Shown here piece by piece: positions 1-56,315 of a stretch of DNA of 64,000 bases (within the stretch, counting starts at the first letter, position 1; each line of letters starts with the position of its first letter). Where the stretch lies: the NCBI RefSeq assembly GCF_003364295.1, contig NZ_NXLO01000002.1, positions 62,001-126,000 on the forward strand. The letters run 5' to 3'. The stretch comes from Helicobacter sp. MIT 99-5507 (GTDB lineage: Bacteria > Campylobacterota > Campylobacteria > Campylobacterales > Helicobacteraceae). The notes under the pieces are model-generated. The model did no database searches and was not told the origin of the DNA. It saw only the letters and a program-made list of their open reading frames with translations. A program made the position numbers and the translations under genes.

Positions 1-371
1 TTAGCCATCACTTTTCCTAAATCTTTTATTCCATTTGCATTTAGAGATTCTATTATGCTTTTTATTTCCAATCTCAATTCATCATCACTTAATTGTTTTG
101 GTAAATATTCTAAAATGATATTCAACTCATCTTCTTCTTTTTTCACCAAATCATCTCTATTTGCCTTTTTATAAGCTTCAATAGAATCTAATCTTTGCTT
201 TTTTGCCTTAAGTAAAATAGAAATAACATCATCATTGCTAAGATCTACTCTTTTATCTACTTCAACTTGCTTTAATTCAGCATTAATAAGTCTTATTGTA
301 TCTCTTCTTATTACATTATTTGCGATCATTGCAGCTTTTAGATCATTTTTTAATTGTTCTTTTATATTCAT
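1..371 (-). CDS. yqeY: GatB/YqeY domain protein, 3' end cut by window edge
   Basis: The reverse strand encodes about 123 residues starting MNIKEQLKNDLKAAM and running off the window edge. The pattern is that of the YqeY family: short basic N-terminal helices, then RRDTIRLINAELKQ, then EYLPKQLSDDEL. The family resembles the tail domain of the tRNA amidotransferase subunit GatB; its role in bacteria is poorly defined. The ATG at 371-369 follows an AAGGA ribosome binding site. The gene is divergent from flgH and the two share an 86-base intergenic region. Most of the roughly 150-residue protein is present and nothing looks broken. Confidence 0.85.
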   Translation of the reverse strand, partial: MNIKEQLKNDLKAAMIANNVIRRDTIRLINAELKQVEVDKRVDLSNDDVISILLKAKKQRLDSIEAYKKANRDDLVKKEEDELNIILEYLPKQLSDDELRLEIKSIIESLNANGIKDLGKVMA

Positions 372-394
372 CTTCAAATCCTTAAATATATATT

Positions 395-412
395 TTGGAA
401 TAAACTTTGCTT
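395..412 (+). promoter_or_regulatory. Sigma-54-type promoter for flgH and pse genes
   Basis: The stretch TTGGAATAAACTTTGCTT has GG at 397-398 and GC at 409-410, separated by exactly ten bases, with TTTGC at the -12 side. This fits the RpoN -24/-12 pattern. Transcription would start near 422, about 36 bases before the flgH ATG. In Campylobacterota, RpoN drives middle flagellar genes, so placement ahead of an L-ring gene makes sense. The assignment rests on pattern alone. Confidence 0.6.
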
Positions 413-457
413 TTTAAAAGATTTAAGTATATCAAATGTAGCAAGGGAATACTAAAA

Positions 458-1165
458 ATGGTGGTAAAAAAACAAATATTATTACTTCTTATTTTATTGG
501 TATATAGTTTATATGCCGACCCTATTATGGATTTTAGTCCGCCAAGATATGTGGAGGAGTTAGGGGAAAAAGACTTTATAGAGGAATTTCCAAAATTAGG
601 TTCATTATTTGGACAAGGTGAGCGTCCTATGTTTGCAGATAGAAGGGCAATGAGAGTAAATGATATTTTATTAGTAAAAGTAAATGAATCTTCAAATGCG
701 ACATTTAGCACACAAAAAACATATAATGGCACGCAAGGTGGCGAGCTAAATGCACCTATTGTAAATTATACAGGTAATAATGCAGAAATAGCACAAAATA
801 TACAAGATTTCAAAGATGGCAGCTCATTTAATATGACTTTGGGAGCTGGAAATTCAAATTTTAATAGCGGTGGCTCACAAAATAGAGATGAAAATGTAAA
901 TCTTGAAATTACTGCAAGGGTGATTAAAGTCCTAAGCAATGGTAATTATTATATAGAAGGCACTAGACAGATTATGATTGATGGGGAGAAAAAAGTAATT
1001 TTAATAAGTGGTGTTATAAGACCATATGATATTTCATCAGATAATAGCATAGAATCTAAATTTATTTCAGAATTAAAGCTTAATTACACAAGTGAAGGTG
1101 ATATAAGCAATAAACGACATCAAAAATGGGGCTCAAAAGAACTCGAGCAAGCGTGGCCATACTAA
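458..1165 (+). CDS. flgH: Flagellar L-ring protein FlgH
   Basis: A protein of 235 residues that forms the outer-membrane L-ring bushing around the flagellar rod. A signal peptide (MVVKKQILLLLILLVYSLYA) is followed by the FlgH signature KLGSLFGQGERPMFADRRAM near residue 50, VNDILLVKV, and later NLEITARVIKVLSNGNYYIEG and SGVIRPYDIS. There is no lipobox cysteine after the signal; the Helicobacter FlgH I recall also lacks one, unlike E. coli FlgH. I chose the ATG at 458 because AAGGGA precedes it and because upstream extension would put charged residues before the signal peptide. pseF begins three bases after its stop, implying one transcript. Confidence 0.93.
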   Translation: MVVKKQILLLLILLVYSLYADPIMDFSPPRYVEELGEKDFIEEFPKLGSLFGQGERPMFADRRAMRVNDILLVKVNESSNATFSTQKTYNGTQGGELNAPIVNYTGNNAEIAQNIQDFKDGSSFNMTLGAGNSNFNSGGSQNRDENVNLEITARVIKVLSNGNYYIEGTRQIMIDGEKKVILISGVIRPYDISSDNSIESKFISELKLNYTSEGDISNKRHQKWGSKELEQAWPY

Positions 1166-1167
1166 GA

Positions 1168-1842
1168 ATGAATATAGCAATCATACCTGCAAGAGATGGC
1201 AGTAAAAGAATTAAAAATAAAAATATAAAGCTATTTTTTGGAAAACCAATCATTACATATGCTATAAAAACTGCAATAGAATCTAAAATATTTGATAGGA
1301 TTATAGTAAGCACAAATAGTAATAAAATAAAAAATATAGCAATAGAATCTGGAGCAGAAGTGCCATCACTTCGTCCAAATAACTTAAGTGATGATTTTAC
1401 TACAACACTAGATGTGATAAGCTATGAGGTAAAAAATCTAGGGCTTAGCGATGATGATATTGTATGTTGTATTTATCCTACAACACCATTGCTAGATTCT
1501 CGTTTTTTAAAAGCAGGGTTGAAAAAACTAAAGAAAGATTCTTATTGTTTTAGCGCATGTGCGTTTAATTCAAATCCATTAAGGGGTTTTTACATTAGAG
1601 ATGAGAGACTTTATTTATTAAATAAAAATTTTATAAACTGTAGAACTCAAGATATAGAAAATATATATTTTGATGCTGGAGCATTTTACTTTGGATATGT
1701 AAAAAGTTTTGCAGATAAAAAGCCTATTTTTAGTGAAGATTCTACTTTAATTATATTACCAGAGATTAATGTTGCCGATATTAATACGCAAAATGATTGG
1801 AAAATTGCGGAGATGAAATATAAAATAATATGCAAGCAATAA
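1168..1842 (+). CDS. pseF: Pseudaminic acid cytidylyltransferase PseF
   Basis: A protein of 224 residues in the acylneuraminate cytidylyltransferase family. It activates pseudaminic acid to the CMP-sugar, the donor for flagellin glycosylation. The nucleotide-binding start IIPARDGSKRIKNKNIK (family pattern IPARxGSKRIxxKN) lies at residues 5-21. GKPIITYAIKTA and CCIYPTTPLLDSRFL follow. The ATG at 1168 matches the family start; an upstream in-frame ATG inside flgH would add 14 unrelated residues. The frame overlaps pseG by 13 bases, suggesting translational coupling. Assignment to pseudaminic rather than sialic or legionaminic acid rests on the neighbouring pseG, pseH and pseI. Confidence 0.9.
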   Translation: MNIAIIPARDGSKRIKNKNIKLFFGKPIITYAIKTAIESKIFDRIIVSTNSNKIKNIAIESGAEVPSLRPNNLSDDFTTTLDVISYEVKNLGLSDDDIVCCIYPTTPLLDSRFLKAGLKKLKKDSYCFSACAFNSNPLRGFYIRDERLYLLNKNFINCRTQDIENIYFDAGAFYFGYVKSFADKKPIFSEDSTLIILPEINVADINTQNDWKIAEMKYKIICKQ

Positions 1843-2771
1843 TTTTTACAGAAGCAGGCAGTGGCTTTGGACTTGGACATTTAAGCAGATGTGATGCACT
1901 AAAAGACTATTTAGAGAATGCTGGTTTTGAAGTCAGTATTTATTGTAGAGGTGATTATATATCGCAGTATTGCAAGCAAATGGAATGGATTAGTGATGAT
2001 TATTCAAATCTTGATGAAATAATAAATAATAAGCTTGTTGTGGTAGATTCATATTATGCAAATAAAGAATTATGCGAATATATAAAAAATAAAGCAAAAG
2101 TATGCGTATTTTTTGATGATTTTAATAGAATAGATTACCCACAAGATTCTATTTTATTAAATGGTGGATTACTTGGAGATAGATTCTATAGAAATGATAT
2201 AAAAAATGAAATTTTTGCAGGGATTGAATATTATATTTTAAGAAAAGAATTTAGACAAAGAGAACAAAAAATAATAAACAAAGATATAAGTAGAATCTTA
2301 ATTACACTTGGTGGTAATGACTATGCAAATAATACTCAAAGTATATTAGAGATAATGGAAAAAGAATGTCCATATGCGATGATTGATGTAGTTTTAGGCA
2401 AAATACATAAGCCAATTAGCTACAATTTTCATACAAGTATGCATAAAAACCTAAGCCCTAGGGTATTAAAAAATCTCATGTTAGATTGCGACCTTGCAAT
2501 AAGTGGTGGAGGTGTAACGATGGTAGAATTGCAATCTACTTGCACGCCAACTATTGCTATGCAAATTGCACCAAATCAAGCCTATCAATTAAGAGTATGG
2601 CAAAAAGAAGGCTTACGAATAGCAACAAATATTCACCAAATAAAAGGACTATTAAAAACACTAAGAAAATTTAAAGATAGAAAAAAACTATCAAATAAAT
2701 TAGCAAAAGTTGAAATTGGCGGAAAAATAAATGAATTTATAAATACATTGATTACTAGATACAATGCTTAA
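1830..2771 (+). CDS. pseG: UDP-sugar hydrolase PseG
   Basis: A protein of 313 residues with a GT-B-like fold. It removes UDP from the trideoxy-altrose intermediate of pseudaminic acid synthesis before condensation by PseI. It starts IIFTEAGSGFGLGHLSRCDA, the glycine-rich PseG N-terminus with the conserved GHLSR histidine. ITLGGNDYANN lies near residue 155 and AISGGGVTMVEL, the nucleotide-binding loop, near residue 222. It overlaps pseF upstream and pseH downstream (8 bases). In H. pylori, as I recall, the PseF and PseG activities lie together at one locus after flgH; here they are separate complete genes. Confidence 0.9.
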   Translation: MQAIIFTEAGSGFGLGHLSRCDALKDYLENAGFEVSIYCRGDYISQYCKQMEWISDDYSNLDEIINNKLVVVDSYYANKELCEYIKNKAKVCVFFDDFNRIDYPQDSILLNGGLLGDRFYRNDIKNEIFAGIEYYILRKEFRQREQKIINKDISRILITLGGNDYANNTQSILEIMEKECPYAMIDVVLGKIHKPISYNFHTSMHKNLSPRVLKNLMLDCDLAISGGGVTMVELQSTCTPTIAMQIAPNQAYQLRVWQKEGLRIATNIHQIKGLLKTLRKFKDRKKLSNKLAKVEIGGKINEFINTLITRYNA

Positions 2772-3279
2772 AGACAAAATACAGCTAGATTCAATAAATA
2801 TAATTGCTATAAATTTTACTAAGTTAAATTGCAATGATAAATTAAAAATCTTAGATATGCGAAATGATGCAAGAGTCTCAAAATATATGTTTTTTGATAG
2901 AAAAATCACAAAAAAAGAACATTTTGAATTTATAAAAAAGCTAGATTCCACAAGAGATAGAATCTATTTTGCAATCAAAGATAAAAAAGATGAAATACTA
3001 GGCGTAATATCACTAACAAATATATCAAATCTAAGCGCATATATCGGAATCTATACAAATCCAAATATAAATACATCAAATGGAAATTTATTAATGCAAG
3101 TCATAAAATACATAGGTTTTAAAGAGATTGGATTAAAACAATTATTTGCACAATGCCTAAAAGATAATCGCAAAGCATTAAGATTCTATGAAAAAGAAGG
3201 TTTTAAAGAGATAAAAACCAACTATATCAAAAAAAATAATAATCTTATAGATGTAGTAGAATTAGTATTTAAGGAATGA
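2764..3279 (+). CDS. pseH: GNAT N-acetyltransferase PseH
   Basis: A protein of 171 residues of the GNAT fold, matching PseH, which acetylates the 4-amino group of the altrose intermediate. Visible family features are NDARVSKYMFFDRKITKKEH near residues 34-53, LGVISLTNIS on the central strand, and KALRFYEKEGFKEIK near the end, a common GNAT C-terminal motif. It sits between pseG and pseI with an 8-base overlap on the left and 4 bases to pseI on the right. Nothing in the sequence alone fixes the substrate; the function follows from position. Confidence 0.88.
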   Translation: MLKDKIQLDSINIIAINFTKLNCNDKLKILDMRNDARVSKYMFFDRKITKKEHFEFIKKLDSTRDRIYFAIKDKKDEILGVISLTNISNLSAYIGIYTNPNINTSNGNLLMQVIKYIGFKEIGLKQLFAQCLKDNRKALRFYEKEGFKEIKTNYIKKNNNLIDVVELVFKE

Positions 3280-3283
3280 GTTA

Positions 3284-4309
3284 ATGTTTATTGTTGCAGA
3301 GCTTAGTGCAAATCATAATAAAGATTTAAATCTTGCAAAAGAAAGTCTATATGCAATAAAAGAATGTGGCGCTAGTGCAGTCAAACTTCAAACATACACA
3401 CCAGATAGCCTCACACTAAATTGCAAAAGTGATATTTTTAAAATCAAATCAAATACAATTTGGGATAATAAATATTTATATGATTTATACAAAGAAGCAT
3501 ATATGCCGCTAGAATGGAATGTAGAATTATTTGAATTAGCAAAAAAAATAGATTTAATATGCTTTAGCAGTGCTTTTGACAAAAAAGGTGTAGATTTGCT
3601 AGAGACACTAAATAATCCCATATATAAAATTGCAAGCTTTGAGATAACAGATATTCCACTTATTCAATACATAGCAAAAAAACAAAAACCTATCATTTTA
3701 TCAAGTGGTATTGCAATAGGCGATGAAATGAGAGAGGCAATAGAGGCAATAAGGCAAGTTGGAAACAATAATATAACGATATTAAAATGCACGAGTTCGT
3801 ATCCAGCACCACTAAATTCACTCAATCTATCCAATATGCTTATTTTTGAAAAAAAATATGGTGTCAAATATGGAATCTCAGATCATAGCATTGGATTTCA
3901 TGCCGCTATCATAGCAGTAAGCCTAAAAGCAAGCATGATTGAAAAGCATTTTATTTTAGATAAAAAATATGGCGGAGTAGATTCTAAATTTAGTATGGAC
4001 AAAGATGAGTTTAAGCAATTAGTCCAAATAATAAAAGATACAAAAAATGCAATTGGAGATACTAATTATAAAATAGATTCTAGTAACATAAAAGAAAATA
4101 ATGATGAAATACCACAAGGAAGAGAGTTTGCAAGGAGTCTATTTGTAAGCAAAGATATAAAAAAAGGTGAAATAATAAAGGCTGATAATATAAAATCTAT
4201 TCGCCCAAATAATGGATTGCCCCCAAAATACCTAAATGAAATAATAGGCAAGACTGCAAAAAAAGATTTAAAATTTGGAGAGCCACTTACTTGGGATAGT
4301 CTTAAATAA
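3284..4309 (+). CDS. pseI: Pseudaminic acid synthase PseI
   Basis: A protein of 341 residues of the NeuB family. It condenses the freed 6-deoxy-AltdiNAc with phosphoenolpyruvate to give pseudaminic acid. An N-terminal TIM barrel carries MFIVAELSANHNKD, VKLQTYTPDSLTL, KIASFEITDIPLI and GISDHSIGF. A C-terminal antifreeze-like (SAF) domain runs from about residue 280 (ARSLFVSKDIKKGE, RPNNGLPPKYLNEIIGK). It is the last gene of the flgH-pse run and converges on fur with 9 bases between stops. pseB lies elsewhere in the window (15210-16202), and the aminotransferase gene pseC is not in the window. Confidence 0.92.
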   Translation: MFIVAELSANHNKDLNLAKESLYAIKECGASAVKLQTYTPDSLTLNCKSDIFKIKSNTIWDNKYLYDLYKEAYMPLEWNVELFELAKKIDLICFSSAFDKKGVDLLETLNNPIYKIASFEITDIPLIQYIAKKQKPIILSSGIAIGDEMREAIEAIRQVGNNNITILKCTSSYPAPLNSLNLSNMLIFEKKYGVKYGISDHSIGFHAAIIAVSLKASMIEKHFILDKKYGGVDSKFSMDKDEFKQLVQIIKDTKNAIGDTNYKIDSSNIKENNDEIPQGREFARSLFVSKDIKKGEIIKADNIKSIRPNNGLPPKYLNEIIGKTAKKDLKFGEPLTWDSLK

Positions 4310-4318
4310 GCAGAATCT

Positions 4319-4813
4319 CTAAATAGTTTGCAAACCTTTTTGTTTTTTCCTGCATTTATCACAAAGAACAAATAATCTAAGATTATCGCTGATTAGTTGG
4401 AATTGTAGAGATTTTGTAATTTCAAGTTGTTTATTTTTTATATCATTATCAATAAATTCAACGATATTGCCACAACTTAAGCAAATGATATGATAATGAT
4501 GTTCTTTTGATGCAATTTCATATTTTTTGCCACTTTTATCAACATCAATTGAGGTTACAAATCCATATGTTTCTAAAAATTGCAAGATTCTATAAATTGA
4601 TGAAACGGAGCAATGTTTGTTATTGTTTTTCATAACAACAGCGATGCCTTCACTGCTTAGATGAACTTTGCTATTATAAATAATTGTTAAAATATCTTCT
4701 CTTTGTTTTGAAGTTTTTAATTTTTTTGCTGCTACGACCTTCCGTAATTTATCTAATATGATTTCTAGAGATTCTGTCTTTTTAATCTCTTGATTATTTA
4801 ATTTTGATACCAT
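4319..4813 (-). CDS. fur: Ferric uptake regulator Fur
   Basis: A metal-dependent repressor of 164 residues. The N-terminal winged helix contains KLKTSKQREDILTIIYN and SVSSIYRILQFLETYGFV. The dimerisation and metal-binding half shows YEIASKEHHYHIICLSCGN with a HHxH cluster and a CxxC, and a second CxxC (CDKC) near the end, the structural zinc pair. It has a longer N-terminal extension than E. coli Fur, as in H. pylori. Fur usually controls iron uptake and its own gene. The start ATG at 4813 faces a 195-base AT-rich intergenic region shared with the chemoreceptor gene. Confidence 0.93.
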   Translation of the reverse strand: MVSKLNNQEIKKTESLEIILDKLRKVVAAKKLKTSKQREDILTIIYNSKVHLSSEGIAVVMKNNNKHCSVSSIYRILQFLETYGFVTSIDVDKSGKKYEIASKEHHYHIICLSCGNIVEFIDNDIKNKQLEITKSLQFQLISDNLRLFVLCDKCRKKQKGLQTI

Positions 4814-4948
4814 GATATATAAACCTTATAATTATTAATATAATAAAATCGCTGATATTTAAATAGTTTTCTAAAAAACAAACAATAACCTAATTATAAC
4901 CTAAATATAGTAAATTAATATAGGCTTATTATTTATTCAATGATTTAT

Positions 4949-4962
4949 GTTAGAATTCTAAC
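4949..4962. promoter_or_regulatory. 14-bp perfect palindrome upstream of chemoreceptor
   Basis: GTTAGAATTCTAAC is a perfect inverted repeat. A plausible -10 (TATACA, 4973-4978) follows it, so the palindrome would overlap the -35 region of the tlpD-like gene. That is a typical operator position. No known regulator site is recognised. Confidence 0.4.
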
Positions 4963-5008
4963 TTTATGTTACTATACAAAAGTTGCTAAATTTTTAAGGA
5001 GATAAACA

Positions 5009-6334
5009 ATGTTTTTTAGTTCAAAGACTGATAATAACACAGAAGAGTTATTGAATACATACAAAAAAGAGATTCAAGAATTAAAACAAGAATGCAATAC
5101 TTATAAAGCTATTGCTAGTTTTTCACACAATGAAGCAATAATTGCAATGAAAAATAATGAGGTTATATTTAAAAACGAAGGTGCTTCATTATTATACAAT
5201 TTTGATGAAATCAAAGCTTCACTGAAAGAAGATGTAGCGAGAATAAACACTCATAATCATTGTTTATTAGTAAATTCTAAAAGATATGAAGATATTATAA
5301 TATTCTCATTGGTTGAAGAAAATGCACGAGTTACACCAAAACCAGGACAAGGTGTAGATATTTTAAAACTATATTGTGATAGTATGAAAATAGGCACAAA
5401 ATTCACACAAGAAATACTTGCAAAATTGGTAGATGAATTGCGCGAAATCTTTGATTCTGCAATTGCTACAGAAGTAGGAATGGACAAAGGTCTTGATATA
5501 GCAGATTCTTCATTGCATCAAATCAATGTATTGTATGAAAAAATGCAAAGTGAAATCACCCTTGTTGGCTCACTCATTCAAAGAAGTAATGAAATCACAA
5601 ATGTAATTTCACTAATTGATGATATAGCAGAACAAACAAACTTACTAGCATTAAATGCTACTATAGAAGCAGCTCGTGCTGGTGAGCATGGAAGAGGGTT
5701 TGCCGTTGTTGCTGATGAAGTTAGAAAACTAGCAGAAAAAACTCAAAAAGCTACAAAAGAAATTGCTATAGTTGTAAAATCAATGCAACAAGAAGCAAGT
5801 GATATACAAACAAGCACAGAAGATATTAATGAAGTTACAGAAAATGTAAAACACAATATTGATGAATTACATGATATTGTAAAAGAATTTAAAAACAATG
5901 CTCGTTTATCAAAATTAAAAATATCTTGTTCTAATGACAGAATCTTCTGCGGTTTAGCAAAAGTAGATCATGTGGCATACAAACAAGCTATGTATTCATT
6001 AATATTTAAAATATCAAATGAGTTCAAACAAGTAGATGGACATTCATGCAGATTTGGAAAATGGTATTATGAAGGTATTGGCAAAAGAGAATTCTCTAAT
6101 ACTATGGGGTATAAAAAAGTTGAAACTCCTCATGATAGTATTCACAATGAGGCAAATACACTTGCTAAGCAATTGCTTGATAATACACAATCAACACCAA
6201 AAAGCATAATTGATGAAAAAATCACATCTATAGAAGAATCTAGCACGCAAATATTTAATGCTATCGATGATATGTTAAATGAAAAAATATCATCAACAAT
6301 GGCAGAAATCCAAACAGCAATAAAATCTGAATAG
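5009..6334 (+). CDS. tlpD: Cytoplasmic chemoreceptor with CZB zinc domain, TlpD-like
   Basis: A methyl-accepting chemotaxis protein of 441 residues with no signal peptide or membrane segment, so cytoplasmic. The N-terminus is a coiled coil (residues 8-35). The conserved signalling hairpin lies near residues 205-240 ([39 protein letters not shown]). A C-terminal chemoreceptor zinc-binding (CZB) domain shows [16 protein letters not shown] and PHDSIHNEA, giving the His/Cys ligands. H. pylori TlpD has the same plan and senses oxidative or energy stress. A strong AAGGAG site precedes the ATG. A long AT-rich hairpin follows at 6343-6375. Confidence 0.87.
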
Positions 6335-48817: not shown

Positions 48818-51454
48818 ATGCAAGAAAAAAATGAAATAGAAAAATATAACCCTCAAATTTTAGAAGAGAAAATTTATAAAATATGGGAAGATAGAGGATA
48901 TTTTGAATTAGATTCAAATAAAGACATTCAAAATGGTAAAAATTTCTGCATCATGATGCCTCCACCAAATATTACAGGTGCATTGCATATGGGACATGCA
49001 CTAACTTACACTCTTCAAGATATAATCACCAGATTTAAGCGAATGGATGGATATAGAGTGCTTTGGCAACCAGGAATCGATCATGCAGGAATTGCTACAC
49101 AAAATGTAGTTGAGAGACAGCTTTTAGCAAAAGGTATAAAAAAAGAAGACATAGGAAGAGATGAATTTCTAAAAGCTGTATGGAAATGGAAAGAAGAAAG
49201 TGGCGGAACAATAATCTCACAGCTTAAAAGACTAGGTGCTTCACCAAATTGGAAAAGATTGCGTTTTACTATGGATAAAGGATTGCAAAATGCTGTAAAA
49301 AAAGCATTTGTAACCTGGTATAACAAAGGACTGATTTATCAAGGTGATTATATGGTAAATTGGTGCACTCACGATGGCGCATTATCTGATATAGAAGTAG
49401 AATTTGAAGAAAATAAAACAAAACTCTACTACATGCGATATTTTATAAAAGATAGTAATGATTATGTAGTAGTTGCTACAACTCGTCCAGAAACTTATTT
49501 TGGCGATACAGCAGTGATGGTAAATCCACAAGATTCTAGATACAAACATTTAATAGGTAAAATTGTTATCCTCCCACTTGTTGGCAAAGAAATAAAAATC
49601 ATTGCAGATTCTTATGTTGATATGGAATTTGGAAGTGGTGTAGTAAAAGTCACCCCATCTCATGATACAAATGACTATGAAGTAGGACTTAGACATAATC
49701 TAGAATTTTTAAGCATATTTGATAAATTTGGAATCTTAAATGAACATTGTGGTGAATTTTGTGGAATGGAACGTCTTAGCGCAAGAGAAGCGATAGTATC
49801 AAAACTAAATGAAAATGGATTTATAGAAAAAATAGAAGATTATACAAATCAAGTAGGTAAATGCTATCGCTGCGGTAATATCGTAGAACCATACATATCA
49901 AAACAATGGTTTGTAAAGCAAGATATTGCAAAAGAAACGATAAAAAAAGTAAATAATGGCGATGCAAGATTCTATCCAAAACAATGGCTAAATAATTTCA
50001 ATGCATGGATGAATGAACTTAGAGCATGGTGCATTAGTAGGCAACTTTGGTGGGGGCATAGGATACCTATATTTTATTGTGATTCTTGTGGGATAAAAAT
50101 AGCAAGTCAAAATGATAGTGAGATATGTAAATCTTGCGGAAAAGAAATGCGACAAGATGAAGATGTGCTTGATACTTGGTTTAGCTCTGGACTTTGGGCA
50201 TTTAGCACACTTGGTTGGGGAAATAAAGATAATGCAGAATCTTTATATAATGAAAATGATTTAAATGATTTTTACCCAAATAATCTACTTATAACAAGCT
50301 TTGATATTTTATTTTTCTGGGTTGCAAGAATGCTATTTAGCGGAGAAAATCTACTTGGTAAATTGCCATTTAAAGATATATATTTACATGCTTTGGTATG
50401 TGATGAATTTGGTAGAAAAATGAGCAAATCAAAAGGCAATGTCTTAGATCCGCTTGTCTTTATACAAGAATATAGTAGTGATATTTTACGCTTTACGCTT
50501 AGTTTTAATTGCATTGCTGGGAGAGATATAAGGATAAGCAAAAATGCGATGAGCATAGGAAATGCACTTGCTACAAAAGTTCTAAATGCACTAAATTTTC
50601 TAATAATGTATAGAAATCAGCAAGATGAAAATAAAGCTTTTATAAATCCAAAAGATATCACCTCTCCACTTGGAATGCATATAAATTATAGATTCAATCT
50701 TTGTATTAATGACATGAGGAATGCCCTAGAATCTTATAGATTTAATGATGCAGCAAGTTGTATTTATAGATTCTTGTTTAATGATTTTTGTGATTGGGGA
50801 ATTGAATTTGTAAAAGCAGATAAAAATGCTGTATTTGAACTTGGTGGAATCTTTAGAGATGCTATGAAATTATTGCATCCATTTATGCCATTTTTGAGCG
50901 AATTTGCATATCATAAAATAAATAACACAAATCTAGAATCTTCAAAATCTATTATGATAGAGAAATTCCCAACATATAATAAAAATATAGATGATGTAAT
51001 AGAATTTGAGATGATTAAAGATATAGTTACAAGCATAAGGCGGGCAAAAATCGTCATTGATTTTGCAAACAAAAGCATACCACTTTGCTATATCAAACTA
51101 AATAAAGAAGTAAATAAAGACATATTAAAGACTTTTATTCCAAAACTAAGTAAATGTGAAAATATCGAATTTGTTGGTGAAAAAATAGAAAATACAATAT
51201 TTGATATTGGTGAATTTTGCGAGATTTACATCCCAACAGATAAAATAAATCTTGATGAAATCAAAGCAAAACTAAATAAAAAGAAAGAAAAAATCTTAAA
51301 AGAGATAGAAAAGCTAGATTCTATGCTTAGCAATCAAAATTTCATCAAAAATGCCCCAAAAGAGCTAATAGAATCCAATCAAAACGCACTAAATCAAACA
51401 AAAGAAAAATTAGCAAAAATACAAAGCGAGATTGATTGTCTATGCAAAAATTGA
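48818..51454 (+). CDS. valS: Valyl-tRNA synthetase
   Basis: A class Ia synthetase of 878 residues. The HIGH region is MMPPPNITGALHMGHAL and KMSKS is FGRKMSKSKGNVLDP. The editing domain has VVATTRPETYFGDTAVMVNP. Two CxxC pairs (CYRCGN, CDSCGI with CKSCGK) lie near the catalytic core. WGHRIPIFY and DEDVLDTWFSSGLWAFSTLG are present, and the tail is a valS-type coiled coil (KKKEKILKEIEKLDSML). The length is typical. The 3' end overlaps the lipoprotein gene by 13 bases. Confidence 0.97.
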   Translation: MQEKNEIEKYNPQILEEKIYKIWEDRGYFELDSNKDIQNGKNFCIMMPPPNITGALHMGHALTYTLQDIITRFKRMDGYRVLWQPGIDHAGIATQNVVERQLLAKGIKKEDIGRDEFLKAVWKWKEESGGTIISQLKRLGASPNWKRLRFTMDKGLQNAVKKAFVTWYNKGLIYQGDYMVNWCTHDGALSDIEVEFEENKTKLYYMRYFIKDSNDYVVVATTRPETYFGDTAVMVNPQDSRYKHLIGKIVILPLVGKEIKIIADSYVDMEFGSGVVKVTPSHDTNDYEVGLRHNLEFLSIFDKFGILNEHCGEFCGMERLSAREAIVSKLNENGFIEKIEDYTNQVGKCYRCGNIVEPYISKQWFVKQDIAKETIKKVNNGDARFYPKQWLNNFNAWMNELRAWCISRQLWWGHRIPIFYCDSCGIKIASQNDSEICKSCGKEMRQDEDVLDTWFSSGLWAFSTLGWGNKDNAESLYNENDLNDFYPNNLLITSFDILFFWVARMLFSGENLLGKLPFKDIYLHALVCDEFGRKMSKSKGNVLDPLVFIQEYSSDILRFTLSFNCIAGRDIRISKNAMSIGNALATKVLNALNFLIMYRNQQDENKAFINPKDITSPLGMHINYRFNLCINDMRNALESYRFNDAASCIYRFLFNDFCDWGIEFVKADKNAVFELGGIFRDAMKLLHPFMPFLSEFAYHKINNTNLESSKSIMIEKFPTYNKNIDDVIEFEMIKDIVTSIRRAKIVIDFANKSIPLCYIKLNKEVNKDILKTFIPKLSKCENIEFVGEKIENTIFDIGEFCEIYIPTDKINLDEIKAKLNKKKEKILKEIEKLDSMLSNQNFIKNAPKELIESNQNALNQTKEKLAKIQSEIDCLCKN

Positions 51455-51981
51455 TTTTATTTGTAGCTATTTTGTTATTTATTGGCTGTGATGAAAAAAT
51501 ATCATTTATAGACATAGAAGAAAATATCAATCATTTAGAATCTCTAAATTCACAAGAAAGAGAAATAGCCCAAATGCAAATAAAACATGCAAAAGAAAAT
51601 AATTATCGCTTAATAACTACAAAAGAGCTAAAAGATAAGCTTGAAAGTGGCGGTGATTTGCAAATTATTGCTGCAATCCCTAGAGGAATCTATATACTTG
51701 GTTTTATAAAAAATGCAAAAAATTTTGAATTTAGCAACAACTTTAGTGGAATCTGGGAAAAAGATACAAAAGGAAGTAAAGATAAATTTATAGATTTTTT
51801 AGGGGATAGAAAAAAAGAAATTATATTTTATGATAATGGAGAAAATGTCGCAATAACTGCTGCAATATGGGCTAAGAAACTTAGATATGAAAATGTAGCA
51901 ATTCTTATTGGTGGATTTAAAGGATGGAAGGAGCGAGATTTTGAGATTAGCTTTGATATGCCTACATGTTGTCAAATTTAA
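51442..51981 (+). CDS. Rhodanese-like lipoprotein lacking the usual cysteine
   Basis: A protein of about 179 residues with lipobox LLFIGC near residue 15 and a C-terminal rhodanese fold: TTKELKDKLESGGDLQIIAA, GYILGFIKNAKNF-type strand, FYDNGENVAITAAIWAKKLR, NVAILIGGFKGWKERDFE. The position of the catalytic Cys in active rhodaneses (YCxxG) is Asp here (FYDNG). Two cysteines lie at the very end (TCCQI). It may bind rather than transfer sulfur. I chose the ATG at 51442; a TTG at 51436 is possible. Confidence 0.7.
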   Translation: MQKLILFVAILLFIGCDEKISFIDIEENINHLESLNSQEREIAQMQIKHAKENNYRLITTKELKDKLESGGDLQIIAAIPRGIYILGFIKNAKNFEFSNNFSGIWEKDTKGSKDKFIDFLGDRKKEIIFYDNGENVAITAAIWAKKLRYENVAILIGGFKGWKERDFEISFDMPTCCQI

Positions 51982-51992
51982 CATAGAGTAAA

Positions 51993-52954
51993 ATGATGGA
52001 TAAAATAGATTTAAGCATTATTATTCCTTGCTTTAATGAAGAACAAAATATACAAAACTTTTATACAAAAGTCCAAAATGTGCTTATGGGGGGGGGAAGA
52101 CTAATTATAAATATGATCTAAATGAAGTTTATTTTATATTTATTGATGATGGAAGCAAAGACAATACAATAAATGAGATAAAAAAACTTCAAGCAAATAA
52201 CAAAAATATAAAACTTATAAAATTCTCTCGCAATTTTGGCAAAGAAGCCGCAATGCTCGCAGGACTAAAAGAAAGTAAAAGTATCTTGACTTGTATTATG
52301 GATTGTGATTTGCAAGACCCACCAGAATTATTATTAGAGATGATTGAAAAATACAAAAATAGCAATGGAGAATTAAAGCTAATTACTGCAAAAAGAAGAG
52401 ATAGGAGTGGAGATTCTGCATTTAGAGCATTTTTTAGCGAAGTGTTTTATAAAATCAATAATATTTTATCTCCAATAAAATTAGAATCTGGTGTAAGAGA
52501 TTTTAGACTAATTCATAGAGATGCACTACAATGTATATTGCAAATAAATGAATATCATAGATTCTCAAAAGCTATATTTGAATTTATAGGATTTCAAAAA
52601 GAAACAATAGAATATGACTATATAGAGAGATACCAAGGAAATTCTAAATGGAATTTTTTAAAGCTATTTTTATATGCAATTGAAGGGATTGTAAGCTTTT
52701 CTACCATCCCACTAAAAATCATTACACTAATTGGCTTTGTGATTTTTATCCTCTCATCAATTTATGGAATCCATATCATGATAAATACACTTGCCTTTGG
52801 AAATGATGTAAAAGGATATCCAAGCATCGTTACTTTGATAGCATTTTTTGGAGGATTGCAAATAATGCTACTTGGAATAATTGGCGAATATATCGCTAGA
52901 ATCTACGAGCAAGGCAAAAATCGCCCTCATTATTTCATCGAATATATTTCTTAA
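51993..52954 (+). CDS. GtrB-type polyprenyl-phosphate glycosyltransferase, frameshifted at poly-G (phase OFF)
   Basis: A family 2 glycosyltransferase of the GtrB/DPM1 type that would charge undecaprenyl phosphate with a hexose, probably glucose. The first 32 codons read SIIIPCFNEEQNIQNFYTKV and then enter a run of nine G (52088-52096). As sequenced, the frame then stops at 52119-52121. With ten G the frame joins the downstream one, giving about 320 residues with FIDDGSKDNT, FSRNFGKEAAM, IMDCDLQDPPELLLEMIEKY, YQGNSKWNFLKLFLYAIEG and two C-terminal membrane helices. Both parts are otherwise intact, which argues for slipped-strand phase variation, not decay. A GtrII-like gene follows. Confidence 0.85.
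52088..52096 (+). repeat. Homopolymeric G9 tract, phase-variation switch
   Basis: Nine consecutive G, the longest G run in the window, lie inside the N-terminal coding part of the glycosyltransferase. Adding one G (or losing two) restores the full frame. Poly-G tracts are the usual contingency repeats in Helicobacter and Campylobacter. Confidence 0.9.
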
Positions 52955-52972
52955 AACAAGGATATTATAAGC

Positions 52973-54493
52973 TTGAATGTAAAAATACTAAGATTGGATT
53001 TAATATTTTTAGCAAAACTAAAACAATTACTAAACTATAAATACAAAATATTATTTGTTTTTATTATTTATTTGGTTGGTTTAGCTGCGTTAATACTTGC
53101 AAATTTTAACTACATAGATGATAGAGATAGAATCCTTTATGGAACATTTGCATTTTTTTGGTGGAATAGACATAGCTCTACTATCGCAGCTTCTATACTT
53201 AGCTTAAATAGCGATTATTTTGTAGTAACATTTCCATATAGTTTATTTATCAGTATTTTTCTACTTAGCATATCATCTATTATTTTTCTAAAAACAATCG
53301 ATAAAAAACTCCTAAATAGTAAAATCGCCTTACTTGCAAGCGTAAGCATAGGACTTTCACCTTATTATTTAGAGAATCTATCATATAAGTTTGATGCCCC
53401 TCTCATGGCATTAAGTGTATTTGCAAGCATATTTCCTTTTCTTTTTATTCGATACAAAAAGATTTTTGTTATTACATCAATTATTGGACTTTTAATAATG
53501 CTTACAAGCTATCAAGCAAGTAGCGGAATTTATATGATGATCTCTATTTTTCTAGCATTTATAAAGATTTTAGAGAAAGATATAAAAGAGGCTTTTAGGA
53601 TTCTTCTTTGTTTTTGCATTTCATATCTTATTGTTGGAATCTTGTATCTTATGATTTACAATCCAGAAGCAACTTATGCAAATACACATATATTGCCACT
53701 TAAGTATTTTCTAATTGGACTTGATAAACACATAACAAATTATATAAAAACTATATATAGCGATATGGGCGGGGGTAGTAGAGTATATTTGCATTTAGTA
53801 TTTGGATTTGCTTTTATATTTGTTGCAAAATCAATCTTAAATGCAAAGATAAATAAATTTTTGGCATTTTTTCTTAGCATAATTACATTAATAATACTCT
53901 TTATCCTTTCATTTGGACTATATCTAATCATCATAACACCAACTTTTGATCCACGAAGTTTTATTGGGTTTGGAGTATTTGTAGGGATTTTGAGTCTGTA
54001 TTCTATATACAAAGGAAAGATTCTCTCTAGCATATTGATTATTATTTTTGTTCATTATCTAATAATGTTTGCAAATTATTATGGACAAAGTTTAAAAGCA
54101 CAAAATGATTATGAAACTTTTAGATGGACTATCATGCTAAATGATTTAGGCAAATTTTTAGATACAAGCCATATGGAAGTAGAATCTAAATTTAATATAA
54201 AAACATTAGGGCATTCAGGAGTAAATCCTGTTATTGCAAAAAGTAAAATACAATATCCGCTGATAGCAAGATTAATACCAAATCTACAAAATAGTTGGAG
54301 TTGGAGTGAATCGGCTCTTGATAATTATGGAATCGTTGGAAATAGTAAGAATAAAGATTGCGATGAATATTCTTCTACAAAAGTTCTAATTGACACATAT
54401 TTTCATACAATAGAATCTTTTAATCCAAATAAAAATACGACTTGCTTTTTAATCACATACAAAAATATTACAGATTATAAAAGTAACTTCTAA
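52973..54493 (+). CDS. GtrII-family membrane glucosyltransferase
   Basis: A polytopic protein of 506 residues with about ten to twelve membrane helices. FNYIDDRDRILYGTFAFFWW near residue 44 carries the acidic pair expected in the first periplasmic loop of lipid-sugar-dependent transferases. ASVSIGLSPYYLENLSYKFD near residue 120 resembles the Pfam GtrII segment closely. Such enzymes move glucose from undecaprenyl-phosphate-glucose to a surface polysaccharide. The GtrB-type gene 18 bases upstream would make that donor. No GtrA flippase is adjacent. The start is TTG at 52973 after AAGGA. The frame is intact, so this gene stays translatable while the upstream gene is OFF. Confidence 0.75.
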   Translation: MNVKILRLDLIFLAKLKQLLNYKYKILFVFIIYLVGLAALILANFNYIDDRDRILYGTFAFFWWNRHSSTIAASILSLNSDYFVVTFPYSLFISIFLLSISSIIFLKTIDKKLLNSKIALLASVSIGLSPYYLENLSYKFDAPLMALSVFASIFPFLFIRYKKIFVITSIIGLLIMLTSYQASSGIYMMISIFLAFIKILEKDIKEAFRILLCFCISYLIVGILYLMIYNPEATYANTHILPLKYFLIGLDKHITNYIKTIYSDMGGGSRVYLHLVFGFAFIFVAKSILNAKINKFLAFFLSIITLIILFILSFGLYLIIITPTFDPRSFIGFGVFVGILSLYSIYKGKILSSILIIIFVHYLIMFANYYGQSLKAQNDYETFRWTIMLNDLGKFLDTSHMEVESKFNIKTLGHSGVNPVIAKSKIQYPLIARLIPNLQNSWSWSESALDNYGIVGNSKNKDCDEYSSTKVLIDTYFHTIESFNPNKNTTCFLITYKNITDYKSNF

Positions 54494-54548
54494 AAATATT
54501 AACAATGTTTAATTACAATTCCAGCCTATTTTACACAAGGAGCAAACA

Positions 54549-55115
54549 ATGAAAAAATTATTTTACCAATCATATTACTCACAAGTAGCGTTTTATACAG
54601 GGATGTATTAGTATATGGTCCAGGAGGTCCAGCACCAGTTTTAAAAGAATTAGCACAAGAATTCAACAAAACCAGTAATGAAAAAGTCAAAATCATAGCT
54701 GGTCCTACATCGCAGTGGATTGAAAAGGCAAAATTAGATGCAGATATTATATATTCAGGTAGTTCTGCGATGATGGATAGTTTTATTAAAACAATGCCAA
54801 ATCAATTATCAAGCAATGATGTAAATGTGCTAAATATAAGAGAAGCAGGGATTATAGTGCGCCCAAACAATCCAAAAAATATCAAAAGTTTTGATGACTT
54901 ACTTAAAAAAGGTATAAAAATAATGGTAGTAGATGGTGCAGGACAAGTGGGCAAAATTTATATCACTAAAATCATCAAATGTAATTTATAGAGCCACAGA
55001 GATTGCCATAACAAAAACAAGCAACAATAAAAATGCAGCACAAAAATTTATAGATTTTATAAATTCAAAACAAGCACAAGATGTATGGAAAAAATATAAA
55101 TGGGAAGCAAAATAA
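54549..55115 (+). pseudogene. AcfC-like solute-binding protein pseudogene
   Basis: The remains of an AcfC-type periplasmic binding protein: VYGPGGPAPVLKELAQEF, IIAGPTSQWIEKAKLDADII, YSGSSAMMDSF and IVRPNNPKNIKSFDDLL. Three lesions are visible. Six A after the ATG shift the frame; seven A would give the signal peptide MKKIILPIILLTSSVLY. After DGAGQVG the frame changes near 54960-54975. About 60 codons usual at that point appear missing, and the C-terminus resumes as YRATEIAITKTSNN and AAQKFIDFINSKQAQDVWK. AAGGAG precedes the ATG, so decay may be recent. Confidence 0.8.
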
Positions 55116-55121
55116 CAAAAA

Positions 55122-56240
55122 CTATGCTTTAAAATCAAAAATAGCCTCTTTATATAGATCTATCATTTTATCAACACAAAATGATAAGTCATATTTTTGG
55201 GCTACACTTTCATATTTAATACTCAATTCCTTTAAATAATCTCTATTTTCTATAAAATAATCTATCTTTTTTGATAAATCTTTTGCATCTCCTGCCCTAA
55301 ACAAACAATCATCATTTATTGCAAATTGCTTTGTAGCCGAAGTTTTACTATCTGATATAATTGGTGTAATGCCATTTGAAATAGCCTCTAGTGTAGCAAT
55401 AGATTCTATATCAACATCAGAAGTATGCACATATAAATCTGTATAAGAATATAGTTTTGAGAGTTCATCATCACTTACAAATCCTAAATCCGCACCAAAA
55501 GTAAGCTTTGAGGCAAGTTTTTTGTATTCTTCTTCTCTTGGTCCAAGTCCTTTTATATGGAGCTTTATTTGTTTTTCATATTTACTTAAATGCACTGCTT
55601 CAATAAGCAAATCCTGCCGCTTTTCTTGCGTGTATCTACCAGTCATTGTGATATGAAAGAAATCATCAATTTTATTTTTTGCTATTTTTTTAAGACGAGG
55701 GGTAAAGCCATTTGAGATTACACATAAATTTGCTTTGTAATTATGCTTTTTTAATTCATCAGCAATTAAATTTGAAGGGCAATGAATATATTTTGTATAT
55801 TTGTAGATTCTATATTTAAATAGCCAAAATATAAATTGATGAATAAAAGGAATATGCCTTAAATGCGCATTGTATGTGATATTTTCAGGTTGGAGGTGGA
55901 ATCCACAAATAAATGGAATATTCATTTCTTTTGCAATTTTTACACCAATAATTTCAAGTTTAAAAGGCAAGAAAAAATGCACTATATCAGCGCCTCTAAA
56001 CGCTTCTTTTAATACTTTTTTATCAGCTTTACCAAAATGCATATGCTGTTTATGTGATATTTCAGTAACAAGTGGAATGTATCTTTCATCTACTCTATAT
56101 GCATCTTTACCTTCAATATATGGTGCTACAACACGGACTTTATGCCCTTTTTGCCTTAGTGTTTGGACTAAATTATTTGCACTAACTGCTGTTCCATTAC
56201 TCTTATCTACAAAGCAATCAACTACAACTACAATAATCAA
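55122..56240 (-). CDS. cgt: Family 4 glycosyltransferase, probable cholesterol alpha-glucosyltransferase
   Basis: A GT-B enzyme of 372 residues. VVDCFVDKSNGTAVSANNLV, RYIPLVTEISHKQHMHFGKA, GADIVHFFLPF, FHLQPENITYNAHL and IHCPSNLIADELKKHNYKA agree with what I recall of H. pylori HP0421, which glucosylates host cholesterol. The retaining GT4 core follows: TGRYTQEKRQDLLIEAV, and the C-terminal DVDIESIATLEAISNGITPI with the ExxxxxxE pattern. I place the start at TTG 56240 (LIIVVVVDCF), six bases after AAAGG. Upstream in-frame ATGs would add about 25 unrelated residues. Another glycolipid acceptor is possible. Confidence 0.72.
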   Translation of the reverse strand: MIIVVVVDCFVDKSNGTAVSANNLVQTLRQKGHKVRVVAPYIEGKDAYRVDERYIPLVTEISHKQHMHFGKADKKVLKEAFRGADIVHFFLPFKLEIIGVKIAKEMNIPFICGFHLQPENITYNAHLRHIPFIHQFIFWLFKYRIYKYTKYIHCPSNLIADELKKHNYKANLCVISNGFTPRLKKIAKNKIDDFFHITMTGRYTQEKRQDLLIEAVHLSKYEKQIKLHIKGLGPREEEYKKLASKLTFGADLGFVSDDELSKLYSYTDLYVHTSDVDIESIATLEAISNGITPIISDSKTSATKQFAINDDCLFRAGDAKDLSKKIDYFIENRDYLKELSIKYESVAQKYDLSFCVDKMIDLYKEAIFDFKA

Positions 56241-56315
56241 ATAAAACCTTTTATATTTTTTAAAACCAAATTCTACAATAATGTTAGTTTTCATAATATA
56301 AATTGATGGTAACAA

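Follow-up and report, generated by a model that had tools for sequence, protein, structure and literature searches.

A chromosomal gtrB–gtrII cassette with a coding poly-G tract in Helicobacter sp. MIT 99-5507, a probable slipped-strand switch of lipid-linked sugar transfer

Organization of the gtrB–gtrII locus

The window, which is the whole stretch of 64,000 nucleotides (64 kb) that was analyzed from Helicobacter sp. MIT 99-5507, harbors a GtrB-type and a GtrII-type glycosyltransferase gene side by side on the forward strand. The gtrB gene is split over two frames. Its N-terminal piece (51993–52121) opens with an ATG at 51993, encodes the first strand and helix of the GT-A domain (LSIIIPCFNEE), and loses its frame past a mononucleotide tract of nine G (G9, 52088–52096, forward strand), where a stop at 52119–52121 ends it after 42 codons. 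The C-terminal piece (52097–52954) follows in another frame and carries the DxD motif, the catalytic Asp, the juxtamembrane region, and two transmembrane helices. The gtrII gene (52973–54493) starts with a TTG eighteen bases past the end of this frame and encodes, in 506 codons, an intact polytopic glycosyltransferase of the putative GT-C type. The same tract, frames, and intact gtrII had been described in an earlier note on this DNA, whose coordinates and frame arithmetic are correct.

The cassette lies between conserved neighbors, valS upstream (48818–51454, forward strand) and a GT4-family glycosyltransferase gene downstream (55122–56315, reverse strand). A rhodanese-domain gene (51436–51981, forward strand) ends 11 nt before gtrB and is likely on the same transcript. 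The order uvrD-...-valS-rhodanese-gtrB-gtrII-GT4-...-amidase-IMPDH is kept in four of the five genus members, and in G001 the pair is found at a different location. A prophage remnant or serotype-converting phage module was rejected on the basis of these fixed chromosomal neighbors, a scan of viral contigs with the GtrII alignment that returned no relative, and an identity of only ~26% to the phage GtrC; the prophage link implied by the earlier note is thereby not borne out. Between gtrII and the GT4 gene, a solute-binding-protein gene (54549–55117) appears degraded by a deletion and frame changes. Its counterpart in L067 (11454–12044) is an open frame of 196 codons, and SBP_bac_11 is matched in a relative.

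The adjacency of gtrA, gtrB, and a type-specific gtr gene is not found here, as gtrA is unlinked to the cassette (C4:184.5 kb). This orphan gtrA is conserved in the genus, with only a weak match in the incomplete genome G003, and has relatives in genera g5, g13, and g3, where gtrA comes immediately after gtrB-gtrII. The genome also encodes two O-antigen ligase/polymerase-like proteins.

Identity of GtrB and GtrII

The disrupted gtrB was left unmended. Each piece was searched separately, and fold and structure comparisons relied on the open copies of relatives. The N-terminal piece covers positions 1–22 of PF00535 and the C-terminal piece positions 30–167; the latter also matches the GtrB family phrog_841 at 3e-93. 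Together, the two pieces make up a whole GT2/GtrB family domain, and the gene is otherwise intact and is out of frame in the assembly. The sister species L001 has an open GtrB, which matches the glucose-specific polyisoprenyl-phosphate glycosyltransferase GtrB from Synechocystis (5EKP) over its full length in sequence (E 1e-72); the best fold matches of the model of this copy are 9NYC and 5EKP (9NYC, E 1e-25). Both the 5EKP alignment and the fold match of the sister copy include the juxtamembrane region and the two transmembrane helices that follow the glycosyltransferase domain. Identity to this best solved relative amounts to 37–39%, compared to ~24% for ArnC. D94, D96, R122, D157, and R200 have been identified as catalytic residues in the Synechocystis enzyme (PMC4728340). 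Equivalents of all five are present in the C-terminal piece, and the truncated N-terminal product contains none of them.

GtrII matches PF14264 at 7e-28 (98.1 bits against a curated cut-off of 30) and the P22-type GtrC family phrog_4829 at 1e-54, with an identity to P22-type GtrC from phage records of only ~26%. It has ~9–10 hydrophobic segments, and Asp50, located after the first helix, is invariant in eight relatives and kept in P22-type GtrC. No sequence match was found in the PDB, and a fold model built from five sequences (pLDDT 40) was too poor for use. PF14264 occurs in 23 of the 121 family genomes sampled, and in most Helicobacteraceae loci GtrB is paired with a PF14264 protein.

The earlier assignment as a GtrB/GtrII-type pair is supported by the 5EKP homology, the five catalytic residues, the match of both pieces to PF00535, and the membership of GtrII in PF14264 and the P22-type GtrC family. 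The further claim that glucose is placed on a surface polymer draws its support from family membership only, and assignment to GT2 or GT-C does not in itself specify the sugar or the acceptor.

A length-tolerant loop carries the tract

Slippery G runs commonly serve as random on/off switches in the Helicobacter group. The G9 of gtrB is the only run of G or C of at least six in the 64-kb window, and by base composition only ~0.003 runs of at least nine would be expected there, so that a chance origin was rejected. With a G run of at least eight within its coding sequence, well beyond chance expectation, gtrB resembles poly-G contingency genes.

The tract lies in the codons of the loop that joins the first helix of the GT-A domain to its second strand, as located by the 5EKP alignment and the sister-copy model. 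This loop is shorter in Synechocystis GtrB and is extended by a low-complexity insert of ~55 residues in the relative G002. In L002, the codons for the same Leu-Met-Gly-Gly-Gly are broken up by other bases, which leaves no slippery run; gtrB switching is therefore not universal in the genus. Across these proteins, the loop is unusually tolerant of length changes.

The sister species L001 carries the same G9, and its gtrB is open (316 aa) because the number of bases that flank the tract differs. The tract is thus common to both species in different coding states, and its length alone does not define ON and OFF. The earlier note had described gtrB as interrupted by G9 and restored by ten G. The frames are indeed separated at the tract, but nine G are not OFF by themselves. 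The reading as a poly-G contingency tract is favored by the same comparison, as gtrB is open in L001.

Switching or decay

Genome-wide, 125 overlapping G9 matches were counted. In the tract-rich regions sampled, 77 runs of at least eight were found (48 of nine, 22 of ten, four of eight, and three of eleven), mainly in genes for glycosyltransferases, methyltransferases, radical SAM proteins, and sugar-nucleotide enzymes. This length distribution is close to that of the Campylobacter phasome, in which tracts of at least eight mediate switching and lengths 9 and 10 account for 53% and 26% (PMC6321876).

The disrupted gtrB frame shows a dN/dS of 0.11 between the window and L001, compared to 0.06–0.22 for intact neighbors. 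With L002 as outgroup, 18 synonymous and 14 nonsynonymous changes fall on the window lineage. The synonymous share expected without constraint is 20–29%, and neutrality is rejected for this lineage with P between 7e-6 and 1e-3. The disrupted copy is still under purifying selection, and an old pseudogene was rejected since constraint on the frame persists.

Tracts also occur elsewhere in related cassettes. Within the genus, gtrII has a nine-base tract in G001 and in G002, at a different place in each; G014, from another genus, has a ten-base tract at a third place, and all three are in frame. No tract is present in G004 or in most of the remaining Helicobacteraceae cassettes, even though G9 is abundant in the genomes of the latter.

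An assembly error in the homopolymer or a fixed loss-of-function mutation would also account for the broken gtrB. Only a single assembly exists for the species, long G runs are prone to error, and the neighboring solute-binding gene looks degraded. This explanation is nevertheless considered very unlikely, as it is at odds with the tract-length distribution and the bias toward glycan genes, the presence of the tract in an independently assembled sister genome, the purifying selection on the out-of-frame piece, and the intactness of the remaining long genes in the window.

Probable exchange of gtrII with the sister species

The median DNA identity between the window and L001 is 89.2% over 253 bins of 250 bases. 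Only six bins reach at least 97%; they are consecutive (53001–54500) and coincide with gtrII. Identity climbs at the 3′ end of gtrB (~52.9 kb), stays close to complete over a core from 52925 to 54510, and drops back to the level of the flanks by ~55.4 kb. Near-identity to L001 thereby takes in gtrII and its 3′ flank (52925–55420). The gtrII copies are 99.2% identical, with 12 differing sites. Their dS is 0.016, whereas that of all neighbors, gtrB included, ranges from 0.38 to 0.61, and gtrII was therefore probably exchanged recently between the two species, in either direction, by homologous recombination. A chimeric metagenome contig in L001 may instead lie behind the near-identity; the 12 differing sites imply that the two copies are not the sequence of the same strain. 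Such an exchange would probably move the presumed specificity part, gtrII, while the switch-bearing gtrB stays resident.

Taken further, the cassette could be an antigen module with split roles, in which the resident gtrB (or gtrII) repeatedly gains poly-G switches at varied positions and gtrII is swapped between species at a fixed site. This is put forward tentatively, at slightly below even odds. If true, one and the same surface sugar would be varied both by random on/off switching and by the replacement of genes, with no phage involved.

Proposed mechanism and alternative readings

The locus is best explained as a chromosomal two-gene cassette for lipid-linked sugar transfer that is controlled by slipped-strand changes in the poly-G tract and whose gtrB is now out of frame (probability roughly 0.76). 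In-frame GtrB would attach a sugar, most likely glucose, to undecaprenyl phosphate at the inner membrane face. The unlinked GtrA would likely help to flip the lipid-linked sugar, and GtrII would move it to an acceptor in the outer leaflet or periplasm, most likely LPS or another surface glycan. The frame of gtrB would be toggled as the length-tolerant loop gains or loses G residues.

A sugar other than glucose, or an acceptor other than LPS such as a glycoprotein or another envelope glycan, is somewhat unlikely but the most credible of the alternatives. It is suggested by the best NCBIfam match, streptococcal PgfS (291 bits for an open relative, below the cut-off of 500), by ArnC as another close fold to GtrB, and by the low identity of GtrII to phage GtrC. 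Glucose and LPS are favored by the closer identity to the glucose-specific GtrB than to ArnC, the pairing of GtrB with PF14264 proteins in most Helicobacteraceae loci, and the two O-antigen ligase/polymerase-like genes.

The consequence of the OFF state depends on donor supply. The genome encodes two intact GtrB-family paralogues, one at C3:352909 (phrog_841 match at 2e-96) and one at C3:337070 (1e-84). Neither has lost any of the five catalytic residues, and the first is present in all five genus genomes. They share 53% identity with each other and 33–36% with the cassette GtrB, from which they form a separate subfamily by sequence comparison. One of them might supply the same lipid-linked sugar, in which case the tract would be a real switch that does not silence GtrII and instead tunes the dose or the sugar that it receives. 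In Shigella, the GtrA and GtrB of one serotype can stand in for those of another (PMC3259042), which fits this possibility. It is judged unlikely given the low identity of the paralogues to the cassette enzyme, and the fact that gtrB adjoins gtrII in all five genus members despite the ever-present first paralogue, together with the purifying selection on gtrB, suggests a dedicated donor. The earlier statement that, in the OFF state of gtrB, GtrII would lack its lipid-glucose donor is plausible, though the two intact paralogues make it doubtful.

Relation to known systems

Most of what is known of GtrB/Gtr(type) systems comes from the prophages of enterobacteria, in which their expression is switched epigenetically. 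The unit of Shigella flexneri (gtrA-gtrB-gtr(type), including GtrII) likewise combines GtrB with a type-specific membrane transferase that has an acidic residue in the region of the first periplasmic loop. It is phage-encoded and comprises three genes, whereas the Helicobacter cassette consists of two chromosomal genes, and the similarity to GtrII is at the Pfam level only. To our knowledge, no poly-G tract is known from the Shigella unit. The gtrABC operons of Salmonella phage P22 and its relatives, which glucosylate the O-antigen, are also related in sequence: the cassette GtrB is 42% identical to ST64T GtrB, and GtrII belongs to the GtrC PHROG family. These operons are phase-variable as well, but through Dam/OxyR-dependent promoter switching (PMC2909390), in contrast to the coding poly-G tract, the unlinked gtrA, and the lack of a phage described here. 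In Pseudomonas donghuensis, chromosomal gtrA/B/II genes likewise combine GtrB with GtrII and are implicated in O-antigen glucosylation; gtrA is clustered there, unlike in the window genome, and the parts of the report consulted do not mention a poly-G switch (PMC8509367).

Poly-G glycosyltransferase genes of Campylobacter and Helicobacter resemble gtrB in the type of tract, in its range of lengths, and in the kind of gene affected, and HCAN_0101 of H. canadensis is one example of a poly-G glycosyl transferase (PMC6321876, PMC2823697). No case of a poly-G tract with gtrB/gtrII in Helicobacter was found in the open-access literature that was searched. The switch is hence of an ordinary type, and its combination with a gtrB-gtrII cassette is new to the literature searched. 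The same biochemistry as in the prophage systems is resident on the chromosome in Helicobacteraceae, where it appears to be switched by slippage, with tracts at independent places in several genomes and a gtrII that was probably exchanged recently. The locus may thus offer a compact natural case for studying how phage adsorption or host recognition selects reversible decoration and gene swapping.

Other tract-bearing and split loci

Further candidate loci were noted alongside the cassette. A second lipid-sugar module (L058:6330-7420, G000:C3) combines GtrA and a PMT_2-type enzyme with a DPM1-like GT2 whose gene has a nine-base tract close to the start; there, too, the start region of the GT2 appears to be out of frame. 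At L061:4783-8253 (G000:C3), a GT2-GtrA fusion gene with G8 and G10 tracts precedes genes for a methyltransferase and a TMEM260-like membrane protein. A PF14264 gene from a different family of the order (L106/L120, G234:C1:257727-258646) is split over two frames and has no long G/C tract. The region G000:C1:341000-418000 is dense in G/C tracts of at least nine, most of which fall in genes for glycosyltransferases, methyltransferases, radical SAM proteins, or sugar-nucleotide metabolism, and is likely a large switchable glycan region.
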